Source: Flavobacterium notoginsengisoli
GTDB lineage: Bacteria; Bacteroidota; Bacteroidia; Flavobacteriales; Flavobacteriaceae
Length of the DNA: 64,000 nucleotides
Direction: 5' to 3'
Assembly: GCF_014207905.1 (NCBI RefSeq)
Contig: NZ_JACHLB010000001.1
Location: 694,676 to 758,675, forward strand
The translations under genes and the position numbers were made by a program. Numbering within the stretch: the stretch's first letter is position 1; the number at the start of each line of letters is the position of its first letter. This document shows positions 18,177 to 40,477 of the stretch, piece after piece. The notes beneath the pieces are model-generated. The model did no database searches. It saw nothing but the letters and a program-made list of their open reading frames with translations, and had not been told where the DNA came from.

Positions 18177-19460
18177 ATGAAAAAAGTACTTTTTATTATC
18201 GTCATAAGTTTGTTTTTTATCAGTTGTAAAAAAGAAAAATCAACGGTAGAAGCTTCGCCTGCAGCAGCAGAAAGTAATTCATCTCCAACAGATCAAGATA
18301 TTATAGATGCTTATACTTATTTATATGGAAGATATCTTGTAATTCAGCAGGAAAATCATGATATAAATGTAGAAAAAGTTGGTTATAATAAGATCAAATA
18401 TAATCCGCTGGGATCAGCACAGTTTGTAAAATTAAATGTGCCTAAAATAGAAGGACGTTATTATACCGCACAAATATTAGATGGCTGGGGAGAAGTTATT
18501 GTAAATATCAATGAGCGTAATTTTCCGAAAACGCCTTATGGAAAATTTGCATTGGTTTTAAAAGGCTCAAATCCAACTATTCCTTCGGGTGCTGTTAAAA
18601 TTGAATTGCCATCTGAAAAAGCTAAAATGCTGGCAAGAGTTGAACTTAAAGGAACTTCGGCTACAGCCAAAAAACTTCAAGAGCAATTTACTTTTACTGT
18701 TCCAGATGGAATCAAAATCGCTCCACCAATAACAATTCCTGATTTTAGCCCAAAAGCGCCAATTGCAGGTGAAATATTTGATAAAGTAGAAGAAGTGCTG
18801 AATTCTTATCCTGATGTTATGCCAAAGGCAAAAGAATATCAAGAAAAAGCAATTATTGTTGGTGTTTATGCTAAAACAGATGAAAAGACAAAAGCACATG
18901 TTGATGAAGTTGTTAAAACAAAAGCAATACCTGCATTTTTAGCTGGAGCAAAAGGTTTTGGAACTCAAAAAGGAGGATGGTCTGTATCGTATGTTGCGGG
19001 AAAATTTGGCGATGATATTATGGCCAGAGATATTATTAATTATGGAGGTTTATGGGCAAATCAAATTGAGGAAGCCATTTATTTTGTTGGACTTACAGAC
19101 AGCAATAAAGAACTTTTAAGCGGAGATAAAGTCTACGAAATTAAATTCGCCAAAGACCAATTGCCAGATGCTTTTGTAAATGCATTTTGGTCTATTACTT
19201 TATACAGCGTTCCAGATTATAGAGTAGTCGATAATAAACTAAAAAGATATAATCTTAATAATGTTTCTGGACTAAAGAAAAACCCCGACGGTTCTCTGAG
19301 CATTTGGTTGGCATCTTCATTGCCTAAAAATGCTATTGAAAGCAATTGGTTGCCAACTCCGGCAGGAAAAGGTTTTGCTTTAACAATGAGAATGTATGTT
19401 TCTAAGAAACCAGTTCTTGATGGACAATGGTTTCCTGCACCAATTGAACAGATAAAATAA
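18177..19460 (+). CDS. DUF1254/DUF1214 lipoprotein, copy 1
   Basis: 427 aa, lipoprotein Cys17 (LFFISC). The N-terminal half (about 40-130) fits DUF1254 (DIIDAYTYLYGRYLVIQQENHD) and the C-terminal part (about 320-425) fits DUF1214 (FWSITLYSVPDY, then NWLPTP and a final RMYVSKKP block). The biochemical role of the family is unknown. It is the most divergent of three tandem paralogues here (also 19485 and 20985), all with lipoprotein signals, so the proteins probably work together at the membrane surface. Confidence 0.88.
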   Translation: MKKVLFIIVISLFFISCKKEKSTVEASPAAAESNSSPTDQDIIDAYTYLYGRYLVIQQENHDINVEKVGYNKIKYNPLGSAQFVKLNVPKIEGRYYTAQILDGWGEVIVNINERNFPKTPYGKFALVLKGSNPTIPSGAVKIELPSEKAKMLARVELKGTSATAKKLQEQFTFTVPDGIKIAPPITIPDFSPKAPIAGEIFDKVEEVLNSYPDVMPKAKEYQEKAIIVGVYAKTDEKTKAHVDEVVKTKAIPAFLAGAKGFGTQKGGWSVSYVAGKFGDDIMARDIINYGGLWANQIEEAIYFVGLTDSNKELLSGDKVYEIKFAKDQLPDAFVNAFWSITLYSVPDYRVVDNKLKRYNLNNVSGLKKNPDGSLSIWLASSLPKNAIESNWLPTPAGKGFALTMRMYVSKKPVLDGQWFPAPIEQIK

Positions 19461-19484
19461 TTCCCTATAAATAAAATCAGACTC

Positions 19485-20960
19485 ATGAAAAATCGATACT
19501 TATTTATTTCCGTCTTTTTTGCATTGATTCTTACGTATGGATGTAAAGAATCAACAATCAAAAATTCAGATACAGCAGAAACTGCTACACCATCTAGTTC
19601 TGATATAAAAATGGATGGAGATTTGCCTTCAAAAGAATCTATTTCGGCATTGTTTGACGAAATGGATTTACAACAGGCAACACAATCTTATTTATGGGGG
19701 CTTCCAATTGTGGCTTTCGCCGAATGGCAGCAACAACATTATAAAACATTCAATGCCACAAGCAATGATCTTGTATTGTATAACACTTATCATGACAGAT
19801 TAGGAATTTTAACGGCAAACGCCACAACTCCCTATGTCATGTCATTTATAGATTTAAAGGCAAATGGCCCAACTGTTATCGAAATGCCCGCTGGAAAAAC
19901 TGCCGGAGGACTTGGTGATTTCTGGCAGAGAGAACAAGCCACAATTGGCGAAATGGGCCCTGATAAAGGAAAAGGCGGAAAATATGTTCTAGTACCGCCA
20001 ACTTTAAAAGATTTTAAAGCAGATGGATATTATATAATTCCATGTGCTACAGTAAATATGTTTTTTGGATTTAGAACATTAGACCCAGATCCAAAAGTAA
20101 CAGAAGAATTGGTAAAAAAAGTAAAAATATATCCTTACGCCCAAAGAGCAAATCCGACTCCAACTAAAATAGTAAGCCCGCCTGCTGATAAAAATTGGTA
20201 CGGAATCCAACCGTCGGGAATTAAATATTGGGAACGTCTTCATGCTATTTTGCAAGATGAGCCGGTTGAAGACCGTGACCGTTTTTTTATGGCTTGGCTA
20301 AAAAATTTGGGTATTGAAAAAGGAAAACCTTTTGCTCCAGACGAACGTCAAAAAAAGATTTTAATCGAAGCTGCCAAAAAAGGAGAACAAATGGCAATTG
20401 CTAATTCTTTTAGTAAGCGTTTTGCAGATGTAAAACATTGGCCAGATAAAAAATGGGATTATGTTATGATTCTTTCAGATCCTTCGCAAAGGACAGCCAA
20501 TTATGATGAGTTTTTCGAAAGATCATCTTATTTCTATGAAGCGGTTACTTACTCAAAAGCGATGATGACCAAAATACCAAACGTAGGCCAAGCTTATTTA
20601 GGCGCTTATTTTGATAATAATGGAAATTGGTTAGACGGTGCTAAAAACTATACTTTAAATATTCCGGCAAATCCGCCTGCGGTTAATTTCTGGTCAATTA
20701 CGATTTATGATTCTGCAACACGTTGTTTGATTGATAATCCGCAGAAAAATGCTGATTTGTCTTCTCGTAAAGACTTAATCAAAAATAGCGATGGTTCGGT
20801 CGATTTGTATTTCGGACCAAAAGCTCCAGCGGGAAAAGAGAAAAACTGGGTGCAGACTTTACCAGGAAAACACTGGTTTACTTATATGCGTTTCTACGGT
20901 CCAACGGCTGCTTATTTTGATAAAAGCTGGAAAATGGATGATATCAAAGAAGTGAAATAG
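19485..20960 (+). CDS. DUF1254/DUF1214 lipoprotein, copy 2
   Basis: 491 aa, lipoprotein Cys20 (LILTYGC). DUF1254 part starts near 66 (ATQSYLWGLPIVAFAEWQQQH) and includes NTYHDRLGILTANATTPYVMSFIDL; DUF1214 closes the protein (FWSITIYDSATRCLIDNP, DGSVDLYFGPKAP, KNWVQTLPGKHWFTYMRFYGP). This is the fullest match to the family consensus among the three. It starts 24 nt after copy 1 and is followed after 24 nt by copy 3, so the three are one transcription unit. Confidence 0.92.
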   Translation: MKNRYLFISVFFALILTYGCKESTIKNSDTAETATPSSSDIKMDGDLPSKESISALFDEMDLQQATQSYLWGLPIVAFAEWQQQHYKTFNATSNDLVLYNTYHDRLGILTANATTPYVMSFIDLKANGPTVIEMPAGKTAGGLGDFWQREQATIGEMGPDKGKGGKYVLVPPTLKDFKADGYYIIPCATVNMFFGFRTLDPDPKVTEELVKKVKIYPYAQRANPTPTKIVSPPADKNWYGIQPSGIKYWERLHAILQDEPVEDRDRFFMAWLKNLGIEKGKPFAPDERQKKILIEAAKKGEQMAIANSFSKRFADVKHWPDKKWDYVMILSDPSQRTANYDEFFERSSYFYEAVTYSKAMMTKIPNVGQAYLGAYFDNNGNWLDGAKNYTLNIPANPPAVNFWSITIYDSATRCLIDNPQKNADLSSRKDLIKNSDGSVDLYFGPKAPAGKEKNWVQTLPGKHWFTYMRFYGPTAAYFDKSWKMDDIKEVK

Positions 20961-20984
20961 AAAGATCATTTAAAATCAATTAAG

Positions 20985-22388
20985 ATGAAAAAATTACTTT
21001 TTTTAGCATTAGTTTTTGTAGCTATTTTTTCTTGTAAAAAGAAAGAAACCGAAGATATAAAAGTAACCACAACAACTTCGATTACACAATATCCAGATTC
21101 AGCCAAAGCAATTGCAAAAGAAGCTTGGACTTATGCTTTTTCGATGGCAATGAATTATCGAACAATGCATTTGTATGCCTTAGATAAAACCTATTCTGAT
21201 TATGCGGGAGGGTTTAATAAGTTTAGACATTATGATAAAATTTTTACAGCAGCAGATACAGCAGTAGTTACACCAAATAATGATACACCTTATTCCTGGG
21301 CAACTTTAAATCTTAAAGATGAACCTGTCGTTTTGGAAGTGCCAGCAATTAAAGATCGATATTACTCTTTTCAGTTTGTTGATTTGTACACCTATAATTT
21401 TGCGTACATCGGAAGCCGTACAACTGGAGATAAAGCTGGAAAATATTTAATTGCAGGACCAGACTGGAAAGGCGAAAAGCCAGCAGGAATCATGGAGGTA
21501 ATTCAGTCTGAAACCTATTTGGTAACATTGTTAGGACGTACCGAACTAAAAATGGCTTCGGGAGATATTGAAAACGTAAAAAAAATACAAGCACAGTATA
21601 AACTGATGCCGTTTCATGAGTTTACAAAGACAGCAGCACCTCCACACAAAGATTTTGCACTGCCTTTCGCCGGTTTTGATCGTGCAGATTTAGGTTCTTC
21701 AAAGTTCATCGGATTAACCAATAATCTACTTCAATATACTTCTCCAAATCCTGTAGAGAAAGATTTGCTGGCAAAATTTGCGAGAATTGGAATTGTTTCT
21801 GGGAAAGAGTTTGACCCCAAAAGTTATACTCCGGAAGTCTTAAAAGCAATTGACGAGGGAGTTCAGGAAGCAAGCAAAGAACTCGAAGATGGTGCAAATA
21901 AACTGACCAATGCAACCTTTTTGTTTGGAACAAGACAAGATCTTAACGGAAATTATACCAACAGAGCTCTTGGCGCGGCAGCAGGGTTGTTTGGTAATAC
22001 TAAAGAAGAAGCCATTTATATTGGGACAAGAACAGATAAGGACAAAAACATTCTTTCTGGGCAGAATAAATACATTATTCGTTTCCCAAAAGGGCAAACG
22101 CCTCCGGCTCAATATTTTTGGAGTATTACGTTGTATAATCTTCCATCACGTTATTTGGTTGAAAATCCAATTAACAGATACTCAATTGGAGACCGAACAT
22201 CAGGATTGAAATACGAACCAAATGGAGATCTGATTATTTATATTCAAAATGAAGCTCCTAAAGGAAAAGAGTCCAATTGGCTTCCGGCTCCAAAAGAAGC
22301 ATTTTATTATTTAATTAGGGTTTATGGTCCTAAAGAGTCTTTGATAAGTGGCGCATGGAAAGCACCACAACCAGAACTTGTGAAGTAA
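20985..22388 (+). CDS. DUF1254/DUF1214 lipoprotein, copy 3
   Basis: 467 aa, lipoprotein Cys17 (VAIFSC). DUF1254 features: AKEAWTYAFSMAMNYRTMH near 45 and VTPNNDTPYSWATLNL near 94, the typical conserved N-D-T stretch of the family. DUF1214 features: FWSITLYNLPSRYLVENP near 374 and NWLPAPKEAFYYLIRVYGP near the end. Only 11 nt separate it from the DUF2252 gene. Confidence 0.92.
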   Translation: MKKLLFLALVFVAIFSCKKKETEDIKVTTTTSITQYPDSAKAIAKEAWTYAFSMAMNYRTMHLYALDKTYSDYAGGFNKFRHYDKIFTAADTAVVTPNNDTPYSWATLNLKDEPVVLEVPAIKDRYYSFQFVDLYTYNFAYIGSRTTGDKAGKYLIAGPDWKGEKPAGIMEVIQSETYLVTLLGRTELKMASGDIENVKKIQAQYKLMPFHEFTKTAAPPHKDFALPFAGFDRADLGSSKFIGLTNNLLQYTSPNPVEKDLLAKFARIGIVSGKEFDPKSYTPEVLKAIDEGVQEASKELEDGANKLTNATFLFGTRQDLNGNYTNRALGAAAGLFGNTKEEAIYIGTRTDKDKNILSGQNKYIIRFPKGQTPPAQYFWSITLYNLPSRYLVENPINRYSIGDRTSGLKYEPNGDLIIYIQNEAPKGKESNWLPAPKEAFYYLIRVYGPKESLISGAWKAPQPELVK

Positions 22389-33297: not shown

Positions 33298-34641
33298 TTA
33301 CTTGCCTACAATTGCCTTGTAAATGTCGTTACCATTAGCAAACAGTAGTAGTGAAATAAGTAAAACAAAACCAACCATTTGCGCATTCTCTAGGAATTTA
33401 TCGCTTGGTTTTTTGCCGCTAATCATTTCATACAATAAAAACATTACGTGTCCACCATCAAGAGCAGGAATTGGCAATAAATTCATAACTCCAAGCATAA
33501 TTGATAACAAAGCAGTGATTGACCAGAAAACTTCCCAGCTCCAAGAAGTAGGGAAAATATTGAAAATTGCCGCAAAACCACCTACTTGTTTGTACGCTTT
33601 GGTTTCTGGATTAAAAATCATTTTCAATTGTTTTCCGTAACCCACCAACTGATCTTTTCCTTTTTCAAGACCAACCGGAATAGATTCGAAGAAACCATAT
33701 TCTTTAGTACTGATTTTATAGTATCCTAATTTCTCTAATGATTTTAAATCTAAACCACCAGCAACAACACCTAATTTTCCGTCATTAGTAACTTTTAAAG
33801 AAATTGGAGTTTCTTTTAAATCACGTAAAACAACAGCTGGAATTTGTTTTCCTTTATTAGCTTCTAAAACTGTTTTTGCTTCATCAAAATATTTAATTTT
33901 TTGTCCGTTAAGAGAAAGAATCAAATCTTTTGGCTTTAAATTTTGGTTTGGAGAATCTTCAGCTACTTGTCCAATTGCAAAAGGTCTGCGTATTCCGATA
34001 AGAAGGCCTTTTTCCGTTTTAGAAAGTTGGTCTACAAAATCAGTTGGCATTGTAATAGTCTGTTGTTTTCCGTCTCTTTCTATTAAAACATGCTTTGCCA
34101 TGATCACATTCATGTTCATGTCGCTGTCGTAGTTTTCTACCGCTTTTCCGTCAATAGAAATGATTTTGTCACCAGTTTTAAAACCAGCTTTAATCATTGC
34201 AGGATTTTCAATTGCCACACCATCTTTTAAGTCAGCATTAGCAATATAAGTATCCCCATAAGCGAAAGCCATTCCTATATAAATAATAAAAGCCAAAATA
34301 AAGTTTACTGTAACACCGCCAAGCATAATAATTAAACGTTGCCAAGCTGGTTTAGTACGAAATTCCCAAGGCTGTGGTTCTTGAGCCATTTGCTCTTTGT
34401 CCATACTTTCATCGATCATTCCAGAAATTTTCACATAACCTCCAAGCGGAAGCCATCCGATACCGTATTCTGTTTCTCCGATTTTCTTTTTGAAAAGTGA
34501 ATATTTAACATCAAAAAACAAATAAAATTTTTCGACTCTTGTTTTAAATAATTTAGCAGGGATAAAATGCCCTAATTCGTGAAGAATAATAAGTAAAGAT
34601 AAACTCAATAGAAATTGAGAGAGTTTGATAACTATATCCAT
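33298..34641 (-). CDS. rseP: Site-2 intramembrane zinc protease RseP
   Basis: 447 aa M50 protease that cuts membrane proteins, typically anti-sigma factors after a first cut, within the inner membrane. The zinc site is His21-Glu-Leu-Gly-His25 in the first membrane segment, the third ligand motif NLLPIPALDGGHV lies near 395, and PDZ domain(s) lie between (about 120-290). The C-terminus has two further membrane segments. An ECF sigma with membrane anti-sigma is elsewhere in the window (6-7 kb), a possible but unproven client. Divergent from the peptide-export cluster. Confidence 0.95.
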   Translation of the reverse strand: MDIVIKLSQFLLSLSLLIILHELGHFIPAKLFKTRVEKFYLFFDVKYSLFKKKIGETEYGIGWLPLGGYVKISGMIDESMDKEQMAQEPQPWEFRTKPAWQRLIIMLGGVTVNFILAFIIYIGMAFAYGDTYIANADLKDGVAIENPAMIKAGFKTGDKIISIDGKAVENYDSDMNMNVIMAKHVLIERDGKQQTITMPTDFVDQLSKTEKGLLIGIRRPFAIGQVAEDSPNQNLKPKDLILSLNGQKIKYFDEAKTVLEANKGKQIPAVVLRDLKETPISLKVTNDGKLGVVAGGLDLKSLEKLGYYKISTKEYGFFESIPVGLEKGKDQLVGYGKQLKMIFNPETKAYKQVGGFAAIFNIFPTSWSWEVFWSITALLSIMLGVMNLLPIPALDGGHVMFLLYEMISGKKPSDKFLENAQMVGFVLLISLLLFANGNDIYKAIVGK

Positions 34642-34677: not shown

Positions 34678-34961
34678 GCGTTTTCTATTTTAATATAAGT
34701 GTGCAAGATAATGTTTAAGATTTTAAATGTTTGTTAATAATTGTCTTAGTTTTTATTAAACAATAAAGTAGTCTTGATTCTTGTCTCGATAGAATTAGTA
34801 ATTAATCTGTCCAAATTGTTACAATTGTCTTATTCTGATATTTTAAAAACTTTATGAGGAACATTTTTTAGAATAACACTTTTAATTTTATCACAGCGAA
34901 AACGTTCTCGAGAAAATGATTTTGTTAAACTTTATTAATTAACCATTTAAATTTTAAAATT
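34678..34961. other. Divergent non-coding region between rseP and the peptide cluster
   Basis: No gene is seen in this AT-rich gap. It holds a perfect 10-bp palindrome TTCTCGAGAA (34905-34914) about 50 nt before the first peptide gene, and a possible promoter at 34921-34955. The palindrome could be an operator. Confidence 0.4.
34921..34955 (+). promoter_or_regulatory. Possible promoter of the peptide operon
   Basis: TTTG (34921-34924), 23-nt spacer, TAAATTTT (34948-34955, last base off consensus), 6 nt before ATG 34962. Weak because the region is very AT-rich. Confidence 0.3.
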
Positions 34962-35123
34962 ATGAATTTAGAAGAATTGAATTTAGTAGAGCTTAATGCT
35001 CAAGAAGTACAAGAGGTTGAAGGTGGGATTTTATCTTTAGCTTTAAGTATTATTGCAATTACAAGCGCAACTTATTATGGGAGTAAGGAAGTAGGAAAGG
35101 CAATATATTTATTAACTCATTAA
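34962..35123 (+). CDS. Double-glycine leader peptide 1 (bacteriocin or signal precursor)
   Basis: 53 aa. The first 22 residues form a classic double-glycine leader: acidic, with regularly placed hydrophobic residues (Leu3, Leu6, Leu8, Leu11, Val16, Val19) and ending EVEGG at 18-22, the cut site of C39 peptidases. The mature part would be 31 residues: a hydrophobic stretch (23-36) and then YYGSKEVGKAIYLL. No Cys, Ser/Thr-rich core or modifying enzyme nearby, so an unmodified (class II-like) peptide is likely. First of six tiny genes that precede the HlyD and C39-ABC genes. Too short for usual gene callers. Confidence 0.82.
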   Translation: MNLEELNLVELNAQEVQEVEGGILSLALSIIAITSATYYGSKEVGKAIYLLTH

Positions 35124-35133
35124 TATAAATATC

Positions 35134-35259
35134 ATGGAATTAAAAGAATTAACATTAGAAGAGCAAAAAGAAATTAATGGAGGAGCTCTATTATTATGGG
35201 CTGCAATGCTAGGGCTTTACATGGGATATAAAGAAATGGAAAGAGAAGTAGCAAAATAA
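35134..35259 (+). CDS. Double-glycine leader peptide 2 (bacteriocin or signal precursor)
   Basis: 41 aa, starting 10 nt after peptide 1. The leader is 17 residues, MELKELTLEEQKEINGG, a textbook match to bacteriocin-type double-glycine leaders (Leu-Glu-Glu-Gln, Ile-Asn-Gly-Gly). The mature part would be 24 residues, hydrophobic at first (ALLLWAAMLGLYMG) and charged at the end (YKEMEREVAK). With peptide 1 it may form a two-peptide pair. Processed and exported most likely by the C39-ABC protein at 37142. Confidence 0.85.
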   Translation: MELKELTLEEQKEINGGALLLWAAMLGLYMGYKEMEREVAK

Positions 35260-35263
35260 AAAA

Positions 35264-35374
35264 ATGAAAACTAGTACTAGATTAGAAATTGTAGCCACTA
35301 TTATAGCGTTAGTAATTTTTGCATATTACAGTGGGAAAGTAATTGGAAAAGCTATTTATTACTTAGTTAATTAA
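35264..35374 (+). CDS. Mini-membrane peptide 3, no leader
   Basis: 36 aa, starts 4 nt after peptide 2. A short polar start (MKTSTRLE), one hydrophobic segment (9-20) and the tail YYSGKVIGKAIYYLVN, which closely matches the end of peptide 1 (YYGSKEVGKAIYLLTH). There is no double-glycine site. It may be an immunity peptide, a leaderless active peptide or a decoy. The likeness to peptide 1 supports that it is a real gene. Confidence 0.7.
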   Translation: MKTSTRLEIVATIIALVIFAYYSGKVIGKAIYYLVN

Positions 35375-35390
35375 GCTTTAATGATATTTA

Positions 35391-35436
35391 ATTTTGAGAT
35401 ATTTTAGGTGGTATTTTGAGATATCGCCTAAAATAT
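35391..35436 (+). promoter_or_regulatory. Direct repeat and stem-loop between peptides 3 and 4
   Basis: ATTTTGAGATAT occurs at 35391-35402 and 35413-35424, 22 bp apart. Overlapping it, ATATTTTAGGTG (35399-35410) pairs with CGCCTAAAATAT (35425-35436) with one G-U pair. No T run follows. Spaced direct repeats two turns apart are the usual site form for LytTR-type regulators, but no such gene is in the window. Confidence 0.45.
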
Positions 35437-35493
35437 TCTTGAGAATACGGTTTAAATTATGTGTATATATTATGAATAAGATAAATTAATAAT

Positions 35494-35625
35494 ATGAAGA
35501 AAGTATCATATAAAGTTGCTCTTTATGCAAGAGAAAATACATTTAATTTTATTTCTTATCTCTTTATTATAGCATTTGTTTTATTCTATTTAGGGTTTTA
35601 TTTAGGAAGAATCGTGGCAAAATAA
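35494..35625 (+). CDS. Mini-membrane peptide 4, no leader
   Basis: 43 aa. A basic, polar first part (MKKVSYKVALYARENT), one membrane segment (about 17-38) and the tail motif FYLGFYLGRIVAK. The G-x-x-x-G pair and the final Arg/Lys match peptides 5 and 6. It is preceded by the repeat/hairpin region, so it may begin a second transcript. Function unknown; immunity or export-substrate role inferred from context. Confidence 0.65.
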   Translation: MKKVSYKVALYARENTFNFISYLFIIAFVLFYLGFYLGRIVAK

Positions 35626-35672
35626 AATTGTTAAAATGTCAATTTTTTTTTTGAAAACAAATTACAGTAAGC

Positions 35673-35712
35673 ATAGAATTAAAAGAAATTCATCTTAATT
35701 ACAATCTAATTT
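35673..35712 (+). other. Possible relic of a peptide leader
   Basis: ATAGAATTAAAAGAAATTCA (from 35673) resembles the start of peptide 2 (ATGGAATTAAAAGAATTAAC, from 35134) but has ATA for ATG and no Gly-Gly further on. It may be a decayed leader copy; the AT-rich background makes this uncertain. Confidence 0.25.
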
Positions 35713-35713
35713 T

Positions 35714-35812
35714 ATGGAATCATCCAAATTTTTAAAACAAATAAGACTTGGAATATTTGTATGCTTGTCTTTATACATTTTGGGTTATGCAATTGGTTCC
35801 ATTTTAAAATAA
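35714..35812 (+). CDS. Mini-membrane peptide 5, no leader
   Basis: 32 aa, the shortest of the set: MESSKFLKQIRLG, then a hydrophobic segment (13-31) with YILGYAIGSILK. The tail motif Y-x-L-G-Y-x-I-G is shared with peptides 4 and 6. It contains one Cys (residue 18). Only 5 nt separate it from peptide 6. Judged real because the motif recurs in neighbours, not because of length. Confidence 0.62.
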   Translation: MESSKFLKQIRLGIFVCLSLYILGYAIGSILK

Positions 35813-35817
35813 TTAAT

Positions 35818-35925
35818 ATGATAAAAAAGAAAATCTATACAATTGAAAGCATAATTTATATAACGTTTGCATTATATGTTTTAGGTTATATAATTGGTAG
35901 AGTATGCCATTATTTTTTCAATTAA
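35818..35925 (+). CDS. Mini-membrane peptide 6, no leader
   Basis: 35 aa: a lysine-rich start (MIKKKIYTIES), a hydrophobic segment (12-28) and YVLGYIIGRVCHYFFN. Same Y-x-L-G-Y-x-I-G-R tail as peptides 4 and 5. The last gene before the stem-loop at 35932 that separates the peptide genes from the exporter genes. Confidence 0.65.
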   Translation: MIKKKIYTIESIIYITFALYVLGYIIGRVCHYFFN

Positions 35926-35931
35926 ATTGTT

Positions 35932-35974
35932 AAACACTACAATAGTTAAAAACCTAATTGTAGTGTTTCTTTTT
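35932..35974 (+). terminator. Stem-loop terminator or attenuator between peptide genes and exporter genes
   Basis: AAACACTACAAT (35932-35943) pairs perfectly with ATTGTAGTGTTT (35957-35968), followed by CTTTTT. It ends 25 nt before the HlyD ATG, so partial read-through would give many peptide transcripts and few exporter transcripts. Confidence 0.7.
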
Positions 35975-35998
35975 AAAAGGAATATTAGAATAATATTT

Positions 35999-37141
35999 AT
36001 GAATTTTACTTCAGATCCAATAAACACATTAGAAAACCTGATTTCAAGAAACAAAACTAAAAGCTACTCAATTTATCTGATAATTCTTTTGGCTCTAATT
36101 ACTTTTTTAGCACTGCTCCCCATAATTAAAATGGACATTAGCAGCCAAAGTCGTGGAATAATTCGTAGTAAAACAGACAATGTTCCTGTCACAACAATTG
36201 TTAGCGGCAAGATAAATTGGATAGCATTAAAAAATAACGTATTTGTAAATAAAGGTGACACACTTCTTAAAATCTCTAAAGAAAATCTGGAAAGTGACAA
36301 AAGAACTCAAGATGTATTATCAGATTCAGTTTCTTTATTATTAAGTGATATTAATAATTTACTTCAGGATCAAACAATACATTTGCAGACTTCTACAGCA
36401 CGAGAAGATTTTTTTAAATTTCAATCAGGAAAAAATGAACTTCAAAGCAAAATCTCGCAGGCTAAAATAAATTGTGATCGAAATAAGATTTTGTACGATA
36501 AAGATATAATCGCTAAAGCAGATTTTGAAAAGTATGAATATGAATTGCGTTTGGCAAAACAAAAAATGCAAAGTTTTATAAGTCAGCAAAAAGCAACGTG
36601 GGAAAATCAAAAAAGAGATTTAGAAGATCGCTTAAAAAATCTTAACGGAACGGTTGCTAAAATAAATGCCGAATCAAATAATTATTTTGTTTTGGCTCCT
36701 ATTTCTGGGACAATAGAAAATTTTTCGGGCATTCAAAAAGGATCTTTTATAAATGCTTCACAATCTATTGCAACAATTTCTTCAGTAGACCATCTTATTG
36801 TTGAGAATAGTGTTGCTCCAAATGATATTGGATTAATAAAGAAAAATCAAAAAGTAAAATTCCAGTTAGATGCTTTCAATTACAATCAATGGGGTTTACT
36901 GGAAGGGAAAGTAATAGATATTGATCATAATATAACCATACAGGGAGAGCAGGCTTTTTTTAAGGTTCGCTGTTCCTTAAATTCTAATGCTTTACATCTT
37001 AAATCAGGTTACAAAACCGATGTATCAAAAGGAATGACCTTAACGACAAGATATATAATTACACGCCGAAGTTTATTCGATTTGCTATTTGATAAAATAG
37101 ACAATTGGTTAAACCCAAAACAATTATCAGCTAAAAAATAA
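35999..37141 (+). CDS. HlyD-family membrane fusion protein of the peptide exporter
   Basis: 380 aa from ATG 35999. A longer frame from TTG 35894 would run through peptide gene 6 and the stem-loop and is rejected. One membrane segment (about 23-44), then a split lipoyl/barrel-sandwich domain (IIRSKTDNVPVTTIVSGKINWI near 53 and FVLAPISGTIENFSGIQKGSFIN near 229), with a long coiled-coil hairpin between (about 100-215). It links the inner-membrane ABC protein to the outer membrane in type I secretion. The stop is directly followed by the start of the ABC gene. An outer-membrane TolC partner is not in the window. Confidence 0.93.
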   Translation: MNFTSDPINTLENLISRNKTKSYSIYLIILLALITFLALLPIIKMDISSQSRGIIRSKTDNVPVTTIVSGKINWIALKNNVFVNKGDTLLKISKENLESDKRTQDVLSDSVSLLLSDINNLLQDQTIHLQTSTAREDFFKFQSGKNELQSKISQAKINCDRNKILYDKDIIAKADFEKYEYELRLAKQKMQSFISQQKATWENQKRDLEDRLKNLNGTVAKINAESNNYFVLAPISGTIENFSGIQKGSFINASQSIATISSVDHLIVENSVAPNDIGLIKKNQKVKFQLDAFNYNQWGLLEGKVIDIDHNITIQGEQAFFKVRCSLNSNALHLKSGYKTDVSKGMTLTTRYIITRRSLFDLLFDKIDNWLNPKQLSAKK

Positions 37142-39292
37142 ATGGCTTCCATAAAAATAAAACAACATGATATTAAAGATTGTGGTGCTGCTTGTTTGGC
37201 TTCTATTGGAAACCATTTCAAAGTTAATCTTCCTATAGCGAGAATTCGTCAATATGCTAATACTGATAAACGTGGTACAAATGTCTTAGGGATAATTGAA
37301 GCTGCAGAAAAAATGGGTTTTACGGCAAAAGGAGTAAAAGGCGGTTTAGATGTTTTAGATAAAATTCCACTTCCAGCCATTGCGCATATTATAACAAAAG
37401 AGCAGTATCATCATTATCTAGTTATTTACAAAGTTGCAAAATCTACCATTACAGTTATGGATCCAGGTTTTGGAAAAATGGAAACCTATACTTTTGAAGA
37501 ATTTCAAAAAGTATGGTCAAGTGTTTTAATTCTTTTTGCACCAAATGATGATTTTAAAACTAGAAATGAAAAAACTTCGCCTTTAAAAAGGTTTTGGAAT
37601 TTAATTCAGCCACACAAAACTATTTTAATTCAGGCTTTAATTGGGGCAATAGTATTTACTGTTTTAGGATTGGCTATGTCAATTTATATTCAAAAAATTA
37701 CAGATTATGTTTTAGTAGATGGCAATAGAAATCTACTCAATTTACTGAGTGTTTCAATGATTGCGATAATTTTACTTCAGGCATATATTGGTTCAAAGAA
37801 AAGTGTATTTGTTATGAAAACGGGGCAATTAATAGATGCTAAATTAATTCTGGGATATTACAAACATCTATTACACCTTCCACAACGATTTTTTGATACC
37901 ATGCAAATAGGTGAAGTTACTTCAAGAATAAATGATGCTGTAAAAATTCGCTCTTTTATAAATGAAACGGCGATAGAAATGATTGTGAATATTTTTATAG
38001 TCATTTTTTCGTTTACCTTAATGTTTACGTACTATTGGAAGTTGGCTTTGGTAATTGTTGTGGTTATTCCTTTTTATGTTTTAATTTATTTTCTGCTTAA
38101 TAAATTCAATAAAAAGGTTGAAAGAAACATCATGGAAAATGCGGCAGAACTGCAAACTCAATTAGTCGAAAGTATTACTCATGTAAGAACGGTAAAAGAA
38201 TTTGGGATTGAAGAATTTTCAAACTTAAAAACAGAAAACAAATTTGTAAAACTTTTATTTACCACTTATAAATCAGGATTAAATGTAGTTTTTGCTACTA
38301 CTTCGACACAGTTTTTAGCTTCTGCTTTTACTGTGATTCTAATGTGGATTGGTTCTGGCTATGTAATTGACAGAGCCATTACTCCTGGAGAATTATTTTC
38401 ATTTTATGCCTTAATAGGATATTTTACTTCGCCAGTTGCCTCTCTTATTAATATGAATAAAACAGCCCAAAATGCTTTGATTGCTGCAGACAGGCTTTTT
38501 GAAATTATGGATTTAGAAAGAGAGGAAACTGAAAATAAAGTGGAGCTATCAAAAGAAAATTTAGGAGATATAAAATTTGAAAACGTCTCTTTTCGCTATG
38601 GATCTCGTACTGAAGTTTTCAAAAATTTTAATGCAGTATTTAAGAAAAACCAAACAACAGCTATAGTTGGAGAAAGTGGAAGCGGAAAAACAACTTTGAT
38701 TTCGCTGCTTCAAAATTTATATCCGATAAAAGAGGGTAAAATTTATATTGGAGATTACGATACAAAATTTATCCATTATCAAAGTTTAAGAAAAATAGTA
38801 GGGGTTATTCCACAGCAGCTTAATCTGTTTTCTGGAAATATCATCGAAAATATTGCTTTAGGAGATTCGTTTCCTAACATACAGAGAATTTTAGATTTGT
38901 CAAAACAATTAGGAATAACTGAATTTGTAGAAAAACTGCCAAATGGTTTTGAAACTCAAATTGGAGAAAATGGGGCTATGCTTTCGGGAGGTCAAAAACA
39001 AAGAATTGCAATTGCAAGAGCATTATATAAAAATCCTGAAATTTTACTGATGGATGAAGCAACAGCTTCTTTAGATACAAATTCAGAACAAATTGTAAAA
39101 GATGTGATTGATAATTTTAAAGCTCAAGGAAAAACGATAATTGTTATTGCACATCGTTTAAGTACAATTGCCAATGCAGATACAATTCTAGTAATGAAAG
39201 ACGGAATGATTGTAGAATCTGGAAATCATTTTGATCTTTTAGAACAAAAGTCAGAATACTATAATCTTTGGAATAAACAGAATTTGATTTAA
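37142..39292 (+). CDS. Peptidase-containing ABC transporter (C39, bacteriocin-type)
   Basis: 716 aa. It removes double-glycine leaders and exports the peptides with ATP. Residues 1-125 are a C39 peptidase: Gln8 (oxyanion), Cys14 in DIKDCGAACL, His91 in HHYLVIYK and Asp107 in VMDPGFG. About 160-440 is the six-helix membrane domain. The nucleotide-binding domain (about 475-716) shows Walker A GESGSGKTTLI, signature LSGGQKQRIAIARAL, Walker B ILLMDEATASLD and the switch His in IAHRLSTI. It abuts the HlyD gene with no gap. Complete and apparently active; the natural substrates are the peptides at 34962 and 35134. Confidence 0.96.
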   Translation: MASIKIKQHDIKDCGAACLASIGNHFKVNLPIARIRQYANTDKRGTNVLGIIEAAEKMGFTAKGVKGGLDVLDKIPLPAIAHIITKEQYHHYLVIYKVAKSTITVMDPGFGKMETYTFEEFQKVWSSVLILFAPNDDFKTRNEKTSPLKRFWNLIQPHKTILIQALIGAIVFTVLGLAMSIYIQKITDYVLVDGNRNLLNLLSVSMIAIILLQAYIGSKKSVFVMKTGQLIDAKLILGYYKHLLHLPQRFFDTMQIGEVTSRINDAVKIRSFINETAIEMIVNIFIVIFSFTLMFTYYWKLALVIVVVIPFYVLIYFLLNKFNKKVERNIMENAAELQTQLVESITHVRTVKEFGIEEFSNLKTENKFVKLLFTTYKSGLNVVFATTSTQFLASAFTVILMWIGSGYVIDRAITPGELFSFYALIGYFTSPVASLINMNKTAQNALIAADRLFEIMDLEREETENKVELSKENLGDIKFENVSFRYGSRTEVFKNFNAVFKKNQTTAIVGESGSGKTTLISLLQNLYPIKEGKIYIGDYDTKFIHYQSLRKIVGVIPQQLNLFSGNIIENIALGDSFPNIQRILDLSKQLGITEFVEKLPNGFETQIGENGAMLSGGQKQRIAIARALYKNPEILLMDEATASLDTNSEQIVKDVIDNFKAQGKTIIVIAHRLSTIANADTILVMKDGMIVESGNHFDLLEQKSEYYNLWNKQNLI

Positions 39293-39364
39293 ATGTTTGT
39301 TAATTAATAAACATTTAAATATCTCGTTTTAAGAAGATACTGTAACTTTACTTTTTCAACATTA

Positions 39365-39406: not shown

Positions 39407-40477
39407 ATGGCTTCACAATTATTTTCTCCTTTAACTATAAAAAACATTACCTTAAAAAATAGAATTGCTATTTCGCCCATGTGTCAATATTCTGCCGAAG
39501 ACGGTTTTGCAAACAATTGGCATTTGGTTCATTTAGGAAGCCGTGCTAGCGGTGGCGCAGGTTTAATCATTCAAGAAGCAACGGCTGTTTCTCCCGAAGC
39601 TAGAATTTCTCCTTCAGATCTTGGAATCTGGAAAGACGAGCATATCGAAAAATTAAAAGAAATTAATCAATTTATTGTTTCTCAAAATTCTATTCCTGGA
39701 ATTCAATTGGCTCATGCAGGGCGAAAAGCTAGTGTTTCGGCTCCGTGGTTGGGCAATAAAAAGTTGGATTTCGCTCAAGGCGGATGGCAGACGGTTTCTG
39801 CAAGTGCAATTCCGTATCATGATGACGAACCTTTTCTTCCAGAAGCTTTAGACAAAAACGGAATCCAAAAAGTAATTTCAGATTTTAAAACAGCAACCAA
39901 AAGAGTGGTCGAAGCTGGATATCAGGTTTTAGAAATTCATGCTGCCCATGGTTATTTACTACATCAGTTTTTATCTCCATTAACCAATGTAAGAACAGAT
40001 GAATACGGAGGAAGTTTTGAAAACAGAATTCGTTTTACGCTAGAAATTGTTGAAGCAGTTCAAACGGAATGGCCTTCTAATTTTCCATTATTCGTTAGAA
40101 TTTCAGCAACAGATTGGGCAGAAAACGGTTGGAACCCAGAAGAATCTGTGCAGCTTTCTAAAATATTAAAAGAAAAAGGAGTAGATTTAATCGATGTTTC
40201 GTCAGGTGGATTGGTTTCGCATCAAAAAATTACGCTTGGACCAGGTTATCAAGTTCCTTTTGCTGAAAAAGTAAAGAAAGAATCGGGAATTGCAACTGGC
40301 GCAGTTGGTTTAATTACCGAAGCCAAACAAGCCGAAGAAATTTTAAATAACGGTCAAGCCGATTTAATTTTATTTGCCAGAGAATCATTGAGAAATCCGA
40401 ATTTGCCTTTGGATTTTGCCAAAGAACTAGAAAGCGATATTCAATGGCCAAAACAATACGAAAGAGCTAAACTTTAA
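39407..40477 (+). CDS. namA: NADPH-dependent flavin oxidoreductase, YqjM/NamA type
   Basis: 356 aa old-yellow-enzyme family member with FMN that reduces activated C=C bonds in enones and electrophiles. YqjM-type markers: Cys26 and Tyr28 in SPMCQYSA, WHLVHLGSRASGGAGLIIQEATAV, the substrate-binding His pair in EIHAAHGYLLHQFLSPLTNVRTDEYGG (near 165-190), and the C-terminal RESLRNPNLP. No signal peptide. The operator-like palindrome upstream suggests induction by electrophile or oxidative stress. Followed by a Gfo/Idh gene after a short hairpin. Confidence 0.93.
   Translation: MASQLFSPLTIKNITLKNRIAISPMCQYSAEDGFANNWHLVHLGSRASGGAGLIIQEATAVSPEARISPSDLGIWKDEHIEKLKEINQFIVSQNSIPGIQLAHAGRKASVSAPWLGNKKLDFAQGGWQTVSASAIPYHDDEPFLPEALDKNGIQKVISDFKTATKRVVEAGYQVLEIHAAHGYLLHQFLSPLTNVRTDEYGGSFENRIRFTLEIVEAVQTEWPSNFPLFVRISATDWAENGWNPEESVQLSKILKEKGVDLIDVSSGGLVSHQKITLGPGYQVPFAEKVKKESGIATGAVGLITEAKQAEEILNNGQADLILFARESLRNPNLPLDFAKELESDIQWPKQYERAKL

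Follow-up and report, generated by a model that had tools for sequence, protein, structure and literature searches.

We identified a compact gene cassette in a 64,000-nucleotide stretch of the Flavobacterium notoginsengisoli genome (hereafter "the window"). It lies between genes that we take to encode an rseP-like site-2 protease and an old-yellow-enzyme (OYE) type oxidoreductase (Table 1). The cassette comprises two adjacent toxin precursor genes with double-glycine (Gly-Gly) leaders (tox1 and tox2), four mini-genes (T1 to T4), and the genes for a HlyD-type membrane fusion protein and a C39 peptidase-ATP-binding cassette (C39-ABC) exporter. All are intact with zero internal stops, and their positions, lengths and motifs are as described in an initial annotation made from the nucleotide letters alone. 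For T4, a longer in-frame ATG is also present at 35761, and a relative (locus L036) favours the start at 35818. Our preferred reading, which we consider fairly likely on sequence grounds, is that T1 to T4 are membrane-anchored, toxin-mimic immunity peptides in an exchangeable two-peptide bacteriocin cassette. Loci and genomes are cited below by our own L and G numbers (G000 is the window genome).

Table 1. The cassette, its boundaries and its flanking genes, in window coordinates (aa, amino acids)
Feature	Coordinates	Strand	Description
rseP-like site-2 protease, left flank of insertion site	33298..34641	-	from the open reading frame (ORF) list
left 17-bp direct repeat TTTAAATGTTTGTTAAT	34722..34738	+	cassette boundary; one copy in empty relatives
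tox1, toxin precursor 1	34962..35123	+	53 aa; 22-aa leader ending EVEGG; mature peptide 31 aa
tox2, toxin precursor 2	35134..35259	+	41 aa; 17-aa leader ending EINGG; mature peptide 24 aa
T1 mini-gene	35264..35374	+	36 aa; single helix; mimic of mature tox1; proposed immunity peptide
T2 mini-gene	35494..35625	+	43 aa; single helix; weak likeness to tox2; proposed immunity peptide
T3 mini-gene	35714..35812	+	32 aa; L043 and L116 hold the toxin partner of its family; orphan, proposed immunity peptide
T4 mini-gene	35818..35925	+	35 aa; weak likeness to tox1; proposed orphan immunity peptide
HlyD-type membrane fusion protein	35999..37141	+	380 aa; domain matches
C39 peptidase-ABC exporter (PCAT type)	37142..39292	+	716 aa; has the catalytic and the nucleotide-binding motifs
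right 17-bp direct repeat	39288..39304	+	overlaps the stop codon of the ABC gene; forms the left half of a 33-bp imperfect palindrome
OYE-type oxidoreductase, right flank of insertion site	39407..40477	+	from the ORF list

The C39-ABC protein has C14, H91 and D107, a Walker A motif (510), LSGGQ (614), Walker B (634) and an H-loop (670). It matches the Pfam domains PF03412 (1.4e-34), PF00664 and PF00005, and the HlyD domain is also clear. The C39/HlyD export machinery reported in the initial annotation is thus confirmed, with clear domains and all catalytic and nucleotide-binding residues in place. The best PDB match of the exporter is PCAT1 (4ry2), over residues 5-712, but this protein comes from a different phylum. 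Its score with NCBIfam TIGR01193 is 513.8 bits, under the cut-off of 523.85; the domain evidence and the PDB match still place the predicted exporter in the wider C39 peptidase-ABC family. The window genome also contains a different C39 system at C1:871710-876338 (L122, L002), with a 735-aa ABC protein that is 35% identical, a partial C39 match and small Gly-Gly peptides.

Close orthologs of the exporter occur in 21 of 150 Flavobacterium genomes (E<=1e-150) and, across the family, in 31 of 397 genomes (1e-200). In named genomes, 431 stretches with the exporter were confirmed by a scan, and the best 80 of them were kept. Relatives among these best 80 are mostly from Flavobacterium, with others from Cellulophaga, Chryseobacterium, Capnocytophaga, Sphingobacterium, Pedobacter and further genera, and the closest named ones agree with the assignment of this DNA to Flavobacterium in the initial annotation. 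We removed L001-L031 and L122-L128 (own-genome paralogs, duplicates and short flanks) as well as L131 and L134 (duplicates) and retained 118 distinct loci, 103 of them with HlyD directly upstream. Reading the 1.5 kb upstream of such exporters for small frames had been proposed as a check, and it revealed a Gly-Gly precursor in 84 of the 102 loci with at least that much flank. The proportion is 52/53 for exporters with a likeness of 80% or more and 32/49 for those below 80%. The mature toxin sequences vary strongly between loci.

The genes starting at 34962 and 35134 encode two different, adjacent Gly-Gly precursors, as expected of class IIb bacteriocins, and precursors paired in this way (<300 bp apart) occur in 65 of the 118 loci. 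With the NCBIfam class IIb model TIGR03949, tox1 and tox2 score 21.4 and 18.1 bits, both under the curated cut-off of 21.5, and the relative in L040 reaches 29.3 bits; scores with Pfam Bacteriocin_IIc are far under its cut-off. The paired genes and the scores just below the TIGR03949 cut-off uphold the earlier assignment to a class II two-peptide type, and tox1, tox2, HlyD and C39-ABC probably form a class II bacteriocin cassette of this type. With the class IIb bacteriocins of TIGR03949 (the lactobin A/cerein 7B family) the cassette shares the Gly-Gly leader, the two short adjacent precursor genes and the C39-ABC exporter with a HlyD-type accessory protein; it differs in being from Bacteroidota, in scoring just under the cut-off and in having immunity candidates that look like the toxins. 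Bacteroidetocins also come from Bacteroidota and have a Gly-Gly leader and C39-ABC export, but their mature peptides are 42 aa long with four cysteines, whereas mature tox1 and tox2 (31 and 24 aa) have none; in the portion of that report available to us, its authors found no immunity protein, whereas candidates are present here (PMC6671954).

The four mini-genes evolve under purifying selection and are thus real genes. The initial annotation had made its case depend on conservation of these small frames, and they are conserved, with ratios of nonsynonymous to synonymous substitution rates (dN/dS) of 0.13-0.53. Against individual relatives, the values are 0.30 for T1 (L078), 0.25 (L032) and 0.53 for T2, 0.13 (L078) and 0.31 for T3, and 0.29 for T4 (L036), from small samples of 9-16 synonymous changes per comparison. 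Eight further comparisons of toxins or mini-peptides among the relatives gave 0.10-0.69, so all comparisons are below 1.

We scored the likeness between toxins and mini-peptides by BLOSUM62 alignment. T1 and mature tox1 align with a score of 66 (13 of 30 residues identical, ungapped, with flush C-termini), which none of 2000 shuffles of T1 reached. Other strong pairs within one locus were found in L074 (84), L094 (75), L040 (67), L137 (59), L048 (54), L073 (50) and L069 (45). The class rules and the ORF calling are heuristic, and the strict rule filed a clear mimic in L085, whose own-locus pair scores 66, and a few junk frames as toxins.

Across the 63 loci with both classes of peptide, the mean best score was 30.03 within the own locus and 22.38 when loci were permuted (20,000 permutations, standard deviation 0.67, largest mean 25.98; P<=5e-5). 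The result was unchanged in three runs in which each cluster of related toxins was represented by a single locus (47 loci). Pairs scoring at least 45 made up 9 of 309 same-locus pairs, in 8 loci (one L094 mini-peptide occurs twice), and 45 of 30,395 other-locus pairs, an odds ratio of 20 for the same locus. Because the mimicry was first spotted by eye on some of the tested loci, we ran a held-out test on 18 further loci that were fetched after the idea had been noted, and likeness was again cognate (P=0.00015). When all pairs found by eye were excluded, 52 loci gave P=0.00005. Control peptides had lower mean scores (20.8 when reversed, 19.8 when shuffled), and a score of at least 40 was reached by none of the loci with reversed peptides and by 0.06 with shuffled ones, versus 14 of 61 with the real peptides. 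In 14 same-locus pairs scoring at least 40, the match stops 0-8 residues from the toxin C-terminus, and within 1 residue of it in 11.

A first class list held 154 mini-peptides, with three Gly-Gly peptides (L139, L143) misfiled and window T3 absent; these errors were corrected for the 63-locus comparison. On that first list, 63 mini-peptides score at least 38 with some toxin, 16 of them in their own locus and 47 elsewhere only. Reversed mini-peptides gave 14 matches at this threshold, and at 45 or more there were 36 real matches and no reversed ones.

Mimics also occur apart from toxins. Profiles of three mimic families, run on the 150 Flavobacterium genomes, matched 4, 9 and 5 of them (12 in total, eight with an exporter ortholog); the standalone mimics were not part of the profiles, except for two members of a row in G063 (in A3 and A4). 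In G109 (two mimics), G094 (one) and G102 (one), mimics lie exactly between rseP and the oxidoreductase gene, and this site has no toxin, HlyD or exporter. The C39 domain is absent from the whole genome of G094, and those of G102 and G109 are >140 kb from the site. In G063, a row of three mimics from three families lies about 830 kb from its own cassette (L214 6986-7484); no C39 domain is nearby and no HlyD was seen in the ORF list. In G004, two mimics directly follow a divergent C39-ABC gene at another site. A plasmid search with T1 gave no match.

To describe the chromosomal site we used 62 OYE genes at least 71% identical from the 150 genomes, leaving out the other 10 of 72 matches (56-62% identity). 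Ten have an exporter cassette directly upstream, with rseP confirmed on the other side in seven. In 42 the site is empty, the OYE gene being only 153-239 bp from rseP. The others are three immunity-only sites, one unrelated 1651-bp insert, four rseP-OYE gaps of 346-618 bp without a mimic, and two contig ends. The unrelated insert is in L313 (G015), at the rseP site.

The window cassette is bounded by perfect 17-bp direct repeats (Table 1). The alignment of an empty relative with the left flank runs through the end of the first repeat, and that with the right flank begins where the second repeat starts. The exact left repeat is present in 19 full cassettes, and 17 of these have the exact right repeat within the sequence examined; in L116 the second copy is just beyond that stretch. 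L040 and L093 have one exact copy and a left copy with 2 mismatches. Two exact repeats also border each of the immunity-only inserts (515, 444 and 404 bp) and the unrelated 1651-bp insert. Empty sites have an exact copy in 26 of 42 cases and a copy with 1-2 mismatches in 11 more. The exact 17-mer is present twice in 13 of the 150 genomes, and in 12 of these it flanks the rseP-OYE site; the backward control pattern gave 5 hits overall.

The repeats, together with the palindrome at the right-hand copy, suggest site-specific integration. Alternatively, the repeats may not be integration marks: the cassette would be a single old, inherited insertion, and the empty and immunity-only sites would be deletions by homologous recombination. 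This account is a serious contender, although we lean against it. All the cassettes observed at the rseP-OYE site share a boundary and many share about 150 bp of leader, no integrase or other recombinase lies inside the window cassette, and recombination from repeat to repeat would leave the same traces. However, the same pair of repeats borders the unrelated insert in G015 and the immunity-only inserts of 404-515 bp, which speaks against this account.

The shape of the mini-peptides bears on what they do. All four are short (36, 43, 32 and 35 aa) with one hydrophobic helix, within the range of short one-helix immunity peptides (<=55 aa); a fold prediction was made for T1 only, where AlphaFold2 on six T1 relatives gave one helix at residues 3-35 (predicted local distance difference test score 90.6). 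The mean hydrophobicity over 19 residues is 2.18 in the mimic helix and 1.18 in the mature toxins. Among the 63 mimic-like peptides of the first class list, GxxxG motifs occur in 44 (6.4 in shuffles), and 111 of 177 toxins have them (58.7 expected). Lysine and arginine (K/R) are in excess on the N-terminal side of the helix in 43 of the 63, on the C-terminal side in 12 and equal in 8. This charge distribution would place the N-terminus inside the cell and the tail towards the periplasm.

The initial annotation had counted the leaderless mini-peptides among the products exported by the cassette, a view that our results do not sustain. In its fullest form, T1 to T4 would leave the cell together with tox1 and tox2 as parts of a multi-peptide toxin, either as leaderless bacteriocins or as additional subunits. 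They are indeed small and toxin-like and lie in the same gene row. However, they have no C39 leader, their helix exceeds the mature toxins in hydrophobicity and is predicted to be of the single membrane-spanning type, and mini-peptides are kept alone in genomes and at sites without this exporter. A role as exported toxins is therefore improbable, and immunity is the better reading of the mini-peptides because they lack a leader, have a hydrophobic helix and are found without this exporter.

Several observations weigh against toxin-mimic immunity as we propose it. An own-locus score of at least 40 is reached in only 13 of 63 loci, so for most toxins no mimic was recognised, and their immunity may come from other genes. 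Within the window, the likeness of T2 to tox2 is weak (25, P 0.05), as is that of T4 to tox1 (29, P 0.02), and T3 has no own-locus partner. Mimicry of the second peptide is tentative, as are the toxin partners of two mini-peptides. Relatives of T2 and T3 do resemble toxins of their own loci (L057, 43, for the T2 family; L043 and L116, 44 and 38, for the T3 family). The topology is not uniform, given the C-side excess of K/R in 12 of 63 mimics, and one group of mini-proteins, the KYPENH type, has a long positive C-terminus that does not fit an N-in orientation. Finally, the 55-aa class IIb immunity protein of ABP-118, presumably AbpIM judging by its length, is not toxin-like (P 0.87 and 0.40). 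Since it shows no mimicry, it leaves our reading without a proven precedent and argues against generality beyond Bacteroidota.

The KYPENH-type mini-proteins (56-59 aa, of the type ...LRKYPENHICSFLIGxSxxLTVVFF) were found in L042, L035, L043, L116 and L111. In L035 and L042 they are similar to the second of the locus's own toxins (score 41 in both), and the group is possibly a two-helix mimic family.

The ABP-118 protein also fits a different account, in which the mini-peptides confer immunity, but their likeness to the toxins reflects shared ancestry or membrane context and protection is not by mimicry (e.g., it is via a receptor). Short one-helix immunity peptides are known for which no mimicry is described, such as CbnZ (42 aa) in the text consulted (PMC6957408), and 47 of the 63 mimic-like peptides have no partner in their own locus. 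However, the likeness is cognate, higher in the own locus than in other loci, and is located in the tail and not in the helix alone. We consider immunity without mimicry rather unlikely.

A signalling role was also raised in the initial annotation, and here we found no positive support for it. In this account tox1 and tox2 would act as pheromones, and the mini-peptides would be receptors in the membrane or modulators. Some C39 exporters, such as ComA, handle pheromones, the window exporter matches such transporters, and many relatives have a helix-turn-helix (HTH) gene beside the toxins. In L078 (1631-1951), L040 (2729-3049), L048 (2607-2927) and other loci, a 106-aa HTH protein is encoded directly before the toxin genes; it has no Pfam or NCBIfam match. 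Strong HTH matches in the 150 genomes lie within exporter-bearing genomes in 12 of 13 cases. However, the HTH is unmatched in the window genome and the window cassette has no kinase or regulator; by eye, the ORF lists show no kinase or response regulator from rseP (33298) to 41595. The extreme toxin diversity between neighbours, the orphan mimic rows and the immunity-only alleles fit toxin and immunity better, and we regard signalling as very improbable.

The HTH tail (EIFGG/SNFRPxLLDGTxISLL) was considered as a C39-cut pheromone. Gly-Gly occurs near the C-terminus of the HTH protein in 51 of 73 distinct tails. We also found a palindrome, TTCCGTCCAA-N5-TTGGACGGAA and variants, 27 times across 19 loci (L037 and L043 among them). 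It encodes the FRPxLLDG of the HTH tail, and it is also present where the HTH body is absent, and downstream of the exporter. In 17 of 19 copies with a downstream toxin, it is 104-111 bp from the toxin start; in the two others the distance is 64 bp, probably due to an upstream ATG being called for the toxin. Eight copies have no called toxin downstream within the stretch. The palindrome (<=3 mismatches) and the HTH are absent from the window and its genome. Coding of FRPxLLDG by the palindrome weakens the pheromone idea, and only weakens it because Gly-Gly itself is present in 51 of the 73 tails. The palindrome is likely an operator or hairpin as well as a module junction, which fits the tail better than a pheromone.

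Under toxin-mimic immunity, the C39-ABC/HlyD pair would cleave tox1 and tox2 after the Gly-Gly and export them, and a TolC-like porin from elsewhere would complete export. In relatives, the toxins would insert into the inner membrane as helices that associate via their glycine faces. T1 to T4, with a short K/R N-terminus, a hydrophobic GxxxG helix and a copy of the toxin tail at the C-terminus, would stay in the cell, anchored in the inner membrane with their tails facing the periplasm. There, a mimic may join the toxin helix assembly and spoil it, or may occupy the toxin's membrane docking partner. We favour a tail-dependent interaction because the tails of toxin and mimic change in parallel between loci. 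T1 would guard against tox1 and T2 probably against tox2, and T3 and T4 may be retained against the toxins of other strains; orphan mimics would then confer resistance to foreign toxins.

Some elements of this scheme have parallels elsewhere. Immunity peptides of two-peptide bacteriocins such as CbnZ have 42-55 aa, and CbnZ has a single transmembrane segment; T1 to T4 are like them in small size and in having one helix. In the parts of that source consulted, the immunity mechanism of two-peptide bacteriocins is termed a mystery (PMC6957408). The Cdz toxin of Caulobacter, also from a Gram-negative bacterium, likewise consists of two peptides; it has glycine-zipper motifs and leaves the cell by type I secretion, and a small protein of the inner membrane, CdzI, provides immunity. 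The toxin forms cell-surface aggregates and kills by contact, and mimicry is unmentioned in the text consulted (PMC5380434). The nearest known logic, by analogy, may be that of the fission yeast wtf poison-antidote genes. Antidote and poison share sequence there, and antidote-only alleles act as suppressors, comparable to our immunity-only alleles; these genes are eukaryotic, with two transcripts from one gene and no secretion, as described in the text available to us (PMC6283613). The article listings and passages that we searched contain no description of toxin-mimic bacteriocin immunity or of this Flavobacterium cassette. Within the literature searched, short one-helix immunity peptides are thus known, and mimicry as their design appears to be new.

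If confirmed, self-protection by toxin look-alikes would be new. We also see about an even chance of a general principle for class II systems in Bacteroidota, in which a copy of the poison's tail, anchored in the membrane, serves as antidote; such antidotes would be cheap to renew when the toxin changes and would accumulate as an inherited repertoire in an exchangeable slot (empty, antidote-only or full). These three states of one site would constitute a natural experiment in which the weapon is lost and the resistance kept. As toxins pair with candidate antidotes from sequence alone, specificity, tail exchange and dominant interference could be tested with peptides of 24-43 residues. If the mimicry is true, antidotes would be predictable from toxins in any genome.

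Scans of the window for promoters and terminators were uninformative, with 30 promoter-like sites versus 28.8 in shuffles and no terminator. Elsewhere in the window, at 18177-22388, we noted a tandem of three DUF1254/DUF1214 proteins with a DUF2252 protein after it, at 22355.

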